Origin: a bacterium
GTDB lineage: Bacteria > Cyanobacteriota > Vampirovibrionia > Gastranaerophilales > Gastranaerophilaceae
Length of the DNA stretch: 48,867 nt
NCBI GenBank assembly: GCA_017512405.1
Contig: JAFWGJ010000029.1
Span: forward strand, 1 to 48,867
Direction: 5' to 3'
Shown here: piece after piece, positions 26,178 to 30,064 of the stretch
Position numbering within the stretch: the stretch's first letter is position 1
How the letters are laid out: each line of letters starts with the position of its first letter
Translations under genes and position numbers: made by a program
Notes under the pieces: model-generated
The model's database searches: none
What the model saw: only the letters and a program-made list of their open reading frames with translations
Told to the model about the DNA's origin: nothing

Positions 26178-28097
26178 TTGAAAGTACTTAAATTCATATA
26201 TAGTATGTTGTTTTTATTTATTATGCTTGTTGTATCAGCGACAAGTGTATTTGCCATTGAGGAAACACACAAAACAGCATTAAAAAGTCCTATTATAACA
26301 GTTGATGATGATGCAAAAATGTACATCAAAGATATTGAAATTACAGGAGCAAACGTAGTAAAACCTGAATATATTTTGGAAAAAATGCAGCTTCATTCAG
26401 GAGACGCTTATAATAGAGATTTACTGCAAACAGATTTAAAACGCATTTACCAAACAGGTTTCTTTTCCGATAAATTAAAAGCTATCCCGATAAAAAACCC
26501 CGATAACACGATTACCCTGAAAGTTATTGTTGAAGAAAATATTCCAATGACAGATTTTACAATTGAAGGAAATACTGTTGTTTCAAAAGAAGAAATTCTA
26601 TCCTATTTATTACCCCTAAAAGGCAAGCCCCAAAACGTTATTCAAATTAATGAAGCAATAGAAGGTATTCAAAATTGTTATGCTGAAAAAGGATATATTC
26701 TTGCAAGAATAAGCGAATTTTATGATGATCCTGACGGTGTTGTAAACTTGAGGATGTCCGAAGGTATTATCAATAAAATAGAAATAACAGGTAATGAAAA
26801 AACTAAGGATTATGTTATAGAACGTAATATTCTGACACAACCCGGAATGATATACAACGAAAATCTTTTAAAAGCAGATTTGGTAAGATTATATGCAACA
26901 CAAGCCTTTAAAGACGTAACTCGTGATATTGAACCATCATTAGAAAATCCTGAGACTTATGATATTACGATAGAAGTAAAAGAACAGCATTCTGCAACTA
27001 TTTCATTAGGTGCAGGTTTGGATTCTGCAACAGGTTTCTTTGGTTCCGCAGGTATTACAGACAATAATTTCTTAGGAAAAGGTCAGAGAATAGGTATCAA
27101 CTTTTTAGCCGGTTCCGGTGTTGTAATGAGTGATGCTTCTGTTCTTGATCACGCAAATTTACAAGCGGAAATCAATTTCTTTGAACCCTACTTTTTAAAT
27201 GCTGATAATTCATTATCAGCAAAACTCTTCTTCAGAGATTTTGGTTCATACCAAGTACCGCTGGCAATAGAACAAAGATTTGGCGGAGAAATTACAGTAT
27301 CTCATAAAGTAAAAGAAAATGAAAATCTTGTTTCTACGTTCACTATTGGTGCAGAAAATATAAATGTAAAAGAAGGTAATTATAGACAGCTAAGAAATTT
27401 AGCAATGGCTAAAATACCTATGCTTAATGATGCTCAGTTTAGAAAGTGGCGTAAAGAACAGTTGGAAGGTGGTTTCTTTGTTCAATTAGCACCAGGTTTA
27501 GTGTATGACACAAGAGACTCATTAGTTAATACAAGAGATGGCGTTATTGCTAATGTTAAATTTTCTGAAAACATCTCATTATCAGGTTTAAACAAGACTC
27601 ATGGCAAGTTAGAAGGTTCAATTAAAAAGTACTTTCCTGTAATGAAAAAATCATCATTTAGTTTAATGGCAAAAGCCGGCGGTATCATTCACGGAGCGGA
27701 TGACGCACCTGCCGTAATGCAGTACAGGTTAGGCGGTCCATATACAATAAGAGGATACAAAGTTGGTTCTGTCGGAACCGGCGCAGGTTTTGTAATGGGT
27801 TCTGCCGAATTGAATACTCCTGTTCTGTTTTTAGACAGAATAAAGAAAGTGCCATTCTTTGATAACTTGAAGTTATCTTTCTTTGTTGATGCAGGTAAAG
27901 TATTACATCCGAACGATATGACAAATTACTTATATAACAGACCGGGTCAAGCAATTACCGCCGGTATTGGTTTAAAACTTTACATACCCGGACTCGGACC
28001 GATGTCAATCGACTATGGTATTCCTCTTACAAACCCTATGGGAGCAACCAACAGACACGGTTACTTCACGTTTGGTGTAGGAGATATGATGTATTAA
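26178..28097 (+). CDS. bamA: Outer membrane protein assembly factor, Omp85/BamA type
   Basis: 639 residues. A signal peptide (to about residue 26, TSVFA) precedes three POTRA domains (YIKDIEITGANVVKPE, MTDFTIEGNTVVSKEEI, INKIEITGNEKTKDYVIE), as in cyanobacterial Omp85 rather than the five of proteobacterial BamA. The barrel follows, with the L6 motif TIRGYKVGSVG and the late FFVDAGKV ... GPMSIDYGIPL, ending in FTFGVGDMMY, whose last residue is Tyr instead of Phe/Trp. It inserts beta-barrel proteins in the outer membrane and is direct evidence for a diderm. The start is TTG at 26178, chosen because it yields the full signal peptide. It forms an operon with an Skp-like gene and the FlhA-C-like gene. 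Confidence 0.93.
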   Translation: MKVLKFIYSMLFLFIMLVVSATSVFAIEETHKTALKSPIITVDDDAKMYIKDIEITGANVVKPEYILEKMQLHSGDAYNRDLLQTDLKRIYQTGFFSDKLKAIPIKNPDNTITLKVIVEENIPMTDFTIEGNTVVSKEEILSYLLPLKGKPQNVIQINEAIEGIQNCYAEKGYILARISEFYDDPDGVVNLRMSEGIINKIEITGNEKTKDYVIERNILTQPGMIYNENLLKADLVRLYATQAFKDVTRDIEPSLENPETYDITIEVKEQHSATISLGAGLDSATGFFGSAGITDNNFLGKGQRIGINFLAGSGVVMSDASVLDHANLQAEINFFEPYFLNADNSLSAKLFFRDFGSYQVPLAIEQRFGGEITVSHKVKENENLVSTFTIGAENINVKEGNYRQLRNLAMAKIPMLNDAQFRKWRKEQLEGGFFVQLAPGLVYDTRDSLVNTRDGVIANVKFSENISLSGLNKTHGKLEGSIKKYFPVMKKSSFSLMAKAGGIIHGADDAPAVMQYRLGGPYTIRGYKVGSVGTGAGFVMGSAELNTPVLFLDRIKKVPFFDNLKLSFFVDAGKVLHPNDMTNYLYNRPGQAITAGIGLKLYIPGLGPMSIDYGIPLTNPMGATNRHGYFTFGVGDMMY

Positions 28098-28115
28098 TAT
28101 AAAAGGAGAAATAAA

Positions 28116-28568
28116 ATGAAATTAAAATTTAAAATTATTACATTGGTTATTGCAATTGCAGCAACAATAAGTTCAAAAGTTTACGCTGAAGGTGTCGGAT
28201 TTATTGATTATAAAAAAGTTCAAGATAATTTTGCTTTTGCAAAAGCTGCTGCAAAAGAAGTTGACAATAAAGGACTTGAATTACAACAATTCTTAGTTGA
28301 TAAGGAAAAGCAATATAAATCATTAGAAACACCGTTAAAAAAGCAAAATTTTGAAGAAAAAACAAAAAAAGAATTTGAAGCTAAACAATCAGCTTACTTA
28401 ACATTTAAATTAAAAAAAGAAGAAGAAGTGTATAATAAAATACAAGCCGCTACAAAACAAGTTCTTATAGAACAAAAATTAGATGCGATTTTTGATTACA
28501 GAGTAATTTTTGTAGGCGGATTGGATGTAACAGACTTAGTTATATCAAAATTAAAAACAGGAAAATAG
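28116..28568 (+). CDS. OmpH/Skp-like periplasmic chaperone
   Basis: 150 residues: signal peptide (to about residue 24, KVYA), then the Skp pattern GVGFIDYKKVQDNFAFAKA, two long charged helices (LQQFLVDKEKQYKSLE, FKLKKEEEVYNKIQAATKQV) and the final strand AIFDYRVIFVGGLDVTDLVI. Skp escorts unfolded outer membrane proteins to BamA, which fits its place 18 bases after bamA. Confidence 0.9.
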   Translation: MKLKFKIITLVIAIAATISSKVYAEGVGFIDYKKVQDNFAFAKAAAKEVDNKGLELQQFLVDKEKQYKSLETPLKKQNFEEKTKKEFEAKQSAYLTFKLKKEEEVYNKIQAATKQVLIEQKLDAIFDYRVIFVGGLDVTDLVISKLKTGK

Positions 28569-28600
28569 AACAAATAAATATAGTTAACGAAGGTGAAATT

Positions 28601-30064
28601 ATGGCAAATAAAAATTCAAAATTACAATATGTTATTAAAACTGTTCCAAGCGAAAACACACTGCCATTACAGAATTTACTTAACGAAATGGCAGAAGACG
28701 GCTGGGATTTATACAGTATGAACGAAGTTGAAACAGATGACGGATTTCAGTTTAATTGTATATTTGTAAAAGAAGCAGACAAAGAAAACTCTTTTGATGA
28801 TGTTGTAAACATTACAGCATTTAAAAGTCAAATGGAGAAAATGCTTTCTGCAAAGCTGTCACCTTACGAAACCTGCCGTGATATTCAAGCAAAAATAAGA
28901 GAGCAAAAGAAAAAAATTTCTAAAATAAAAGGGCAATTAGAAAAAGAAGAAGCTGGAACTCAACAAAGAAAAACTCTTAATGATAAAATGTCTGCGGGTA
29001 TAAAAGAATTAGAAAATTTACAACAAAACCTCATTAAAGCAATTTCGCCTGATGCGATGTTTTCAACATTACAACTTGAAAAATTTTCTATTCATTTAAG
29101 TGAACAAATTTTAGAATTCGTATCACCTGATAATGAATCAGATTTGTTGAGTGAAACAGTTAAAACAAGACAAAAACTGGCAGACGATTTAGGATACATC
29201 ATTCCAAAAATTATATTCAGAGATGATGAAATGCTTGCGCCTTATGAATTTTCTATTAATGTAAGAGGTTTAAGTGTTTTGAATTCGTTTGTATATCCTG
29301 AACACGTAATGTATTTTCAGGATGATATAAATTACAAAGGCAAAAAGAAAGATTGTCATACTGACGTAGACGTAATTACAGGCAAGAAGACCGTATGGAT
29401 GCCTGAATCAAAGACCAAAGATTTTTGGGTAAAAGGTTTAACTCCGTCAGAATATATTGCAAGAGCGGTTGAATTTGTTGCAATAAAATATATTGACGAC
29501 TTACTTGATTATGATGATGTAAATAAATATGTTGATATTGTTTCGGAACAAAATTCTTATCTTGTTGATAACATAATTCCTGATTTTATTTCAATAGCAG
29601 AATTAAGATATATATTAGTAAATTTAATAAGAGAACGTGTATCAATAAAAGACATTGTTTATGTATTTGAAAAGATAAATGATTTTTCGGATGAAGCAAG
29701 TAAAGAAGCCTTGCTTGATAAGATAAGATTTTCTTTATCAAGATACATATGCAGCAGATATGCAAATATTGACAGTGTTGTTCAAGGAATTGAATTTAAA
29801 GAAAAAACTCTTGCTGATTTATTTGGTGAAACCGATGATGAAGATAATATAATAAGAGTTGACGGAGATAAAGTAGAAACTGTTGCATTAAAACTATTAA
29901 AATTTGCAAAAGATAACGAATTGGACAATATAGTTGTAGTTGTACCTATTGAAGTACGTCATATGGCATTTATTGTTTTATCTCAGTATATAAATACTTT
30001 AACCGTACTTGCACAGGAAGAAGTAACAAACTACTATGATTTTGAAATAATAGGTGAAGTATAA
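28601..30064 (+). CDS. Soluble FlhA C-terminal domain protein with DUF4177-like N-terminus
   Basis: 487 residues without signal peptide or membrane helix. Residues about 8-57 match the DUF4177 pattern (LQYVIKTVP ... LLNEMAEDGWDLYSM ... FNCIFVKE). Residues about 88-148 form a coiled coil. Residues about 157-487 follow the cytoplasmic domain of FHIPEP/FlhA/SctV over its whole length: TRQKLADDLGYIIPKIIFRD, FSINVRGLSV, GLTPSEYIARAVEFVA, LVDNIIPDFISIAELRYILV, NLIRERVSIKDIVYVFEKIN, RFSLSRYICSRY, and IVVVVPIEVRHMAFIVLSQY. In type III secretion and flagella this domain forms the nonameric ring that docks chaperone-substrate complexes, but it is normally tethered to eight membrane helices, absent here. 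It is 32 bases behind the Skp gene in the bamA operon. Role unknown; a soluble docking ring or adaptor is a guess. Confidence 0.88.
   Translation: MANKNSKLQYVIKTVPSENTLPLQNLLNEMAEDGWDLYSMNEVETDDGFQFNCIFVKEADKENSFDDVVNITAFKSQMEKMLSAKLSPYETCRDIQAKIREQKKKISKIKGQLEKEEAGTQQRKTLNDKMSAGIKELENLQQNLIKAISPDAMFSTLQLEKFSIHLSEQILEFVSPDNESDLLSETVKTRQKLADDLGYIIPKIIFRDDEMLAPYEFSINVRGLSVLNSFVYPEHVMYFQDDINYKGKKKDCHTDVDVITGKKTVWMPESKTKDFWVKGLTPSEYIARAVEFVAIKYIDDLLDYDDVNKYVDIVSEQNSYLVDNIIPDFISIAELRYILVNLIRERVSIKDIVYVFEKINDFSDEASKEALLDKIRFSLSRYICSRYANIDSVVQGIEFKEKTLADLFGETDDEDNIIRVDGDKVETVALKLLKFAKDNELDNIVVVVPIEVRHMAFIVLSQYINTLTVLAQEEVTNYYDFEIIGEV

Follow-up and report, generated by a model that had tools for sequence, protein, structure and literature searches.

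Introduction

In every type III secretion system the cytoplasmic domain of FlhA or SctV (FlhA-C) acts as the platform for sorting, and to our knowledge it is invariably attached to the export channel. Here we describe a gene for a detached FlhA-C, found in a stretch of 48,867 nucleotides from a member of the Gastranaerophilaceae (GenBank assembly GCA_017512405.1, contig JAFWGJ010000029.1; the whole stretch is hereafter called the window). Its product is a soluble protein of 487 residues in which FlhA-C follows a coiled coil and a small N-terminal domain (N-domain). Gastranaerophilales, the order concerned, are widespread, gut-dwelling, non-photosynthetic relatives of cyanobacteria. Our preferred explanation, to which as a whole we give a probability of roughly one half, is that the soluble family has a single origin, no later than the base of the order, as a cytosolic paralogue of the C-terminal domain of FlhA/SctV, and that it would provide a remodelled FlhA-C platform, probably ring-shaped and probably partnered by a membrane FlhA, for a second, non-motility type III system.

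The four subdomains of FlhA-C, D1 to D4, have been studied closely: oligomerisation of SctV-C is driven by D3 (PMC8223533), G368 of the GYXLI motif is needed for the open-close motion, F459 belongs to the dimple in which chaperones dock, and roles are also given to P646 and P667 (PMC9431611). The whole D1-D4 fold is common, end to end, to our protein and to the FlhA/SctV cytoplasmic domains of known structure (PDB 3mix, 6ch2, 3a5i, 7amy, 7alw). Our protein differs from them in having neither the membrane domain nor the FlhA linker, with the N-domain and the coiled coil instead, and in the replacement of the GYXLI glycine, of the dimple residues F459, T490 and H491, and of both prolines.

Two described cases come closest. 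FlhX (HP1575) of Helicobacter pylori is a soluble protein homologous to the C-terminal domain of FlhB, and one account reports that it serves flagellar export as a 'spare part' (Wand et al. 2006, as cited in PMC3040844); like our protein, it is the detached cytoplasmic domain of a gate protein, encoded by a separate gene beside that of the full-length protein. FlhX derives from FlhB and not FlhA, however, and because the soluble FlhA-C has lost docking residues and gained an N-domain, it is unlikely to be simply a spare part of the same kind. In chlamydiae, flagellar-type FlhA, FliI and FliF occur in non-flagellated cells and interact with a secretion system (PMC2830194), which is again a case of flagellar-type export proteins retained in the absence of a flagellum. 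There the FlhA is a membrane protein and few genes are kept, whereas Gastranaerophilales have a whole second export set, known from its genes, plus the soluble FlhA-C. In the openly available literature that we searched, we found no report of a detached FlhA-C or of type III secretion in Gastranaerophilales, and a detached soluble FlhA-C with an N-domain does look undescribed, as an earlier note made from the letters of the window had proposed.

A soluble FlhA-C protein with an added N-terminal domain

The Pfam family FHIPEP matches residues 127-477 of the protein at 6.6e-47, and the alignment is confined to profile positions 321-654 of 657, that is, to the cytoplasmic half, the membrane half being left unmatched. 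NCBIfam FlhA matches residues 134-487 (3.7e-42), and FlhA-C chains of the PDB are recovered at 1.2e-20 with the single sequence and at 4e-44 with a profile of the family. The AlphaFold2 (AF2) model has a pLDDT of 82, and its best Foldseek match is the FlhA-C structure 6ch2 (E 1.8e-21, TM 0.83 by target). No membrane helix is present in the 487 residues: the highest hydropathy over 19 residues is 1.68, inside the folded D4. The reading given in the earlier note, of a protein without membrane helix in which a coiled coil leads into an FlhA-C complete from end to end, is thus confirmed, all four subdomains included.

That note had also called the N-domain DUF4177-like, and here the domain must be separated from the label. 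The domain is real: it is compact, conserved (mean identity 58% across the family) and confidently modelled (pLDDT 90). The label is weak. DUF4177 (PF13783) shares with it the motif and the predicted beta-alpha-beta-beta order, but it reaches only E 0.1 on the window protein (13.3 bits against a Pfam gathering cut-off of 25). Among relatives, 15 of 29 show it at E<=0.1, the best at 0.0021 and all below the curated cut-off wherever scores were shown, and nothing anywhere in the window's genome passes that cut-off. DUF4177 itself offers no known function that could be carried over. Comparison of the N-domain fold with PDB structures gave no significant match, and sequence and fold searches for its function likewise returned nothing significant.

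A single-copy core gene of one order

Searched with the whole protein, 55 of 58 Gastranaerophilales genomes have the soluble FlhA-C. Searched with the N-domain alone, exactly one copy is present in 281 of the 287 genomes of the order that are at least 90% complete, and nearly all the frames around it, among the matches listed, span about 480-530 residues; the others are short (131 and 358, for example). The multi-helix membrane domain that stands at the N-terminus of FHIPEP-type proteins is missing in the relatives as it is in the window protein. Since the same stand-alone architecture recurs in these 281 genomes, a sequencing error that cut away or joined a membrane domain is ruled out. Together with the strong FHIPEP match, this disposes of both findings that the earlier note had named as fatal to its reading.

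The gene is restricted to this order, of which it is a single-copy core gene. In a sample of the class, 52 of 52 family genomes carry the soluble protein, and in 94 genomes from other orders FlhA is either full-length or missing; short FlhA frames at contig edges in other orders (G111, G089) are without the N-domain, and we take them to be cut or divergent full-length FlhA. No soluble protein was found in the other groups of a phylum sample, bar two weak cyanobacterial matches to the N-domain at about 1e-4.

Residues kept and residues replaced

We set 29 members of the soluble family against 23 membrane FlhAs from the class and against FlhA-C of Salmonella, whose numbering is used throughout. 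Among 58 positions conserved in membrane FlhAs, the soluble family keeps 17 at 90% or more and loses 19. Those kept belong mainly to the fold core and to D3, and the core residues retained are R391, G399, P403, W465, L544, E547, S550, D553, E559, R579, I586, R655 and E676. Mean identity is likewise highest in D3 (60%, against 36-51% in the other subdomains), a degree of conservation that points to a possible homo-nonameric ring.

The replacements are as consistent as the retentions. G368 has become Ser or Asn and F459 has become Thr, Ser or Asn in 29/29 members, H491 is gone from all of them, T490 is Arg or Lys in 27, and P646 and P667 in D4 are replaced as well. By contrast, the FlhA of the second export set (FlhA2, see below) keeps G368 and H491 in 15/15 sequences, with Tyr or Phe at position 459 in 15/15. 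Because no member of the family retains the dimple or the hinge glycine, the soluble protein would not be expected to dock the usual flagellar chaperones.

The loss of hinge glycine and docking dimple would also make sense if the protein did not cycle along with export, and we therefore considered a cytosolic FlhA-C mimic that acts outside the gate, sensing free substrate or chaperone of the second system and controlling expression or timing as a regulator or decoy. Export-chaperone regulators offer a model for such a manner of action. The protein is soluble and single-copy, its gene lies at dispersed loci, often near housekeeping genes, and the extra N-domain is as conserved as D3. Yet no DNA- or RNA-binding domain was recognised in it and the structure search with the N-domain was fruitless, and we regard a regulator of this kind as an unlikely, if serious, alternative.

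Two flagellar-type export sets

The earlier note had seen no other type III gene. This is true of the window, but the genome contains two full-length FlhA and two export-gate sets, which makes a second type III system, rather than the Bam machinery encoded next to the gene, the obvious partner to consider. Family searches of the genome found FlhA, FliP, FlhB and FliF twice each, together with four FliI/F1-type ATPases, a number that fits two FliI and two F1 subunits. The flagellar set has FliP-FliQ-FliR-FlhB-FlhA in one operon and accompanies flagellin. The second set has no flagellin and occurs throughout the order; it is spread, in the window genome (G000), over contigs C90, C64, C133, C101 and C129, and was also read at loci L040, L043, L046, L048, L051 and L171 of relatives. 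One of its clusters runs FlgC-transglycosylase-FliE-FliF-'FliG'-FliH-FlhA2-FliI; the others comprise FliM/N-FliO-P-Q-R, FliJ-FliK-FlgE/F/G (FliJ and FliK being weak matches) and FlhB2 adjoining a sigma factor gene. Its rod-type proteins, FliO and full-length FliF speak for a flagellar-type export system rather than a non-flagellar injectisome. From the family-search results, we read a second FlhA in 53/58 genomes of the order, including all 41 that are at least 90% complete. The second set predates the soluble protein: other orders of the class have FlhA2 at 63-66% identity together with FliF2, FliH2 or FliI2.

Two of its components deserve a remark of their own. The transglycosylase is a lytic transglycosylase. 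The protein in the fliG position (L006:683-1705 and homologues) is conserved, is duplicated in G041 and G046, and matched nothing in Pfam and nothing credibly in the PDB.

Flagellin was not found in 18 of the 58 genomes of the order. These same genomes are without flagellar FlhA and FliP but keep the second set, which is thus the only type III system left to them, and 16 of the 18 also keep the soluble protein. Such retention disfavours a purely flagellar role, in which the protein would back up the FlhA-C of the true flagellum. The soluble gene does lie directly 5' of flagellar fliJ-fliK-flgD-flgE in one family (G041, G046), but this neighbourhood is limited to that family, and we strongly disfavour an accessory flagellar function.

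In published genome descriptions the second set has been taken for a flagellum in decay (PMC3787301; Soo et al. 2014, as cited in PMC5877343). Thirteen flagellum-related genes common to four genomes, one of which is without filament genes, are listed by Di Rienzi et al. 2013, who take them for a flagellum under reduction (PMC3787301). In their list, flgG, flgG, flgC, fliF, fliH, flhA and fliI bear the gene numbers 15, 16, 18, 21, 23, 24 and 25, an order that matches the second system at L171. The second flhA that they list on another contig may be the soluble gene, and the incomplete flagellum reported for MEL.A1 may be the second system.

Origin of the soluble family

In a tree built without a 220-residue paralogue whose branch length is 3.1, the soluble family is recovered as a single, fully supported clade at the end of a long branch (1.96), and its placement beside the FlhA2 of the class is weakly supported (76/69). 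Within the window genome, the soluble protein scores 146 bits against FlhA2 and 67 bits against flagellar FlhA. Judged by sequence scores, FlhA2 is clearly favoured over flagellar FlhA as its probable nearest relative. Joining the family to the order's own FlhA2 gave a p-AU of 0.08, near the limit.

Other detached forms of FlhA-C have appeared in the order. The 220-residue protein, encoded in the window genome itself (L007:9406-10068, G000:C122), is without D2 and D4 and so consists of D1 and D3 only; others of this make-up, with 212 and 285 residues, are found in relatives (L055:8482-9120 and L054:7567-8424). In one genome (G019:C9, L056:7042-8823, minus strand) a fusion of 593 residues joins an N-terminal part resembling the protein in the FliG2 position (FliG2 profile, E 1e-18) and one membrane helix to an FlhA2-C with 40% identity to FlhA2. 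These detached or re-fused FlhA2-C proteins give circumstantial support to a role of the soluble protein around the second system.

They also bear on the possibility that an old FlhA-C copy has been fully diverted to an unrelated cytosolic job, for instance as a structural ring or scaffold, and has severed any type III tie. Its divergence, fast in comparison with FlhA2 as the branch length indicates, would suit such a history, as would the 19 lost positions and the absence of a genomic link to export operons. The repeated birth of detached FlhA2-C proteins in the order, one of them fused to a second-system protein, argues against it, and so do the 17 positions kept in fold core and D3. We think a complete change of function rather improbable.

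A proposed role in the second system

If the soluble FlhA-C serves the second system, it may assemble below the FlhA2 gate through its conserved D3, either into a ring of its own or together with FlhA2-C, as a layer or a mixed ring. The remodelled D1-D2 face and the conserved N-domain could then bind something that only this system has, be it a substrate, a chaperone or a regulator. The proposal of the earlier note, that a docking ring had been recruited to another export or outer-membrane-assembly task, stands in its first half: a detached and conserved FlhA/SctV domain has apparently acquired a task of its own. Its second half, assembly of the outer membrane with BamA and Skp, is unsupported (see below).

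Several observations weigh against a platform for the second system. The soluble gene never lies inside a second-system operon in the loci examined. Two members of the order, G008 (98% complete, a small genome) and G009 (93%), have the second export system and are without the soluble protein, and the same combination occurs in other orders of the class, so the protein is not strictly required by the second system. Because both are near-universal in the order, their co-occurrence is weak evidence and speaks only against the flagellum. Lastly, a grouping of the soluble family with flagellar FlhA was not rejected by the topology test (p-AU 0.30).

A broader proposal follows, which we put forward more tentatively still and hold to be rather less than even. 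Gastranaerophilales might possess an order-wide, non-motility secretion apparatus of flagellar type in which a separate ring of soluble FlhA-C, with its N-domain, forms a second docking layer; such a division between gate and platform would be new to type III systems, and the 'incomplete flagella' that have been reported would in part be this apparatus. A soluble core FlhA-C with a remodelled docking surface is in any case a natural test of whether docking can be separated from gating, and it brings into view a second export system, one kept when flagella are lost. If that system is indeed a secretion apparatus, it would give common gut commensals a conserved route to act on their surroundings.

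Gene neighbourhood

Features of the locus are given in Table 1; the borders of D1 to D4 in the window protein follow the general division of FlhA-C. The gene starts with ATG, 32 bases 3' of the skp stop codon and in line with bamA. The identities that the earlier note had assigned to the two upstream genes are borne out, as is the spacing, and the window BamA carries three POTRA domains.

Table 1. Features of the bamA-skp-soluble FlhA-C locus (window positions)
Feature	Position	Strand	Basis and remarks
bamA	26178..28097	+	Omp85 1.6e-43, POTRA 1.5e-31, BamA TIGR03303 2.1e-72; judged no functional partner
skp/ompH	28116..28568	+	OmpH 1.5e-9; judged no functional partner
Probable ribosome-binding site (AAGGTG) for the soluble FlhA-C gene	28590..28595	+	inferred from direct reading of the sequence
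Soluble FlhA-C protein, open reading frame (ORF), 487 aa	28601..30064	+	ORF and translation, FHIPEP 6.6e-47, fold match to FlhA-C
N-domain, beta-alpha-beta-beta, residues 8-58, DUF4177-like motif LLNEMxxxGWxLYSM	28622..28774	+	family alignment, AF2 pLDDT 90.5
Coiled-coil linker, residues 85-148	28853..29044	+	two long helices, 88-114 and 120-148, in AF2 model
FlhA-C D1, first part, residues 157-233; GYXLI Gly replaced by Ser/Asn	29069..29299	+	profile alignment to Salmonella FlhA-C, residue mapping
FlhA-C D2, residues 234-281; docking-dimple F459 replaced by Thr/Ser/Asn	29300..29443	+	alignment, residue mapping
FlhA-C D1, second part, residues 282-301; T490/H491 replaced by Arg/Lys and mostly Ala	29444..29503	+	alignment, residue mapping
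FlhA-C D3, residues 302-380, ring-building subdomain, most conserved	29504..29740	+	60% mean identity, 29 members
FlhA-C D4, residues 381-487, least conserved (36%)	29741..30061	+	residue mapping

With spacers of 18 and 32 bases and no convincing terminator found between the three genes in the window, the arrangement invites the idea that the soluble protein assists BamA and Skp in assembling the outer membrane. Relatives seem at first to agree: among 80 named loci of the main clade (named relatives of the window genome reach up to 89% identity), most show the order bamA-skp-soluble FlhA-C-malQ, with a nucleoside phosphorylase (PNP) or another gene ahead of the soluble gene. But in most main-clade loci it is the unrelated PNP gene that intervenes after skp, and bamA and skp were not found beside the soluble gene in 20 loci from six other families and a deep branch, nor at L050, L053 and L058. 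Outside the main clade the gene is found either by itself or with unrelated neighbours. FlhA-C, moreover, is a cytosolic domain, and BamA and Skp act in the periplasm and outer membrane. The conserved order that the earlier note had suggested looking for thus holds in one large clade and fails in the six other families and in deep branches of that clade's own family; it is a clade-level arrangement, and the partner has therefore to be sought elsewhere. Synteny leads us to reject a BamA/Skp partnership as a general explanation, and we consider an assembly factor of this sort very improbable.

One contig, CALUSG010000062.1 (L126, L131), carries two bamA-skp-PNP-soluble FlhA-C-malQ blocks, 28 kb apart and in opposite directions, which reflects either a duplication or a chimeric contig.

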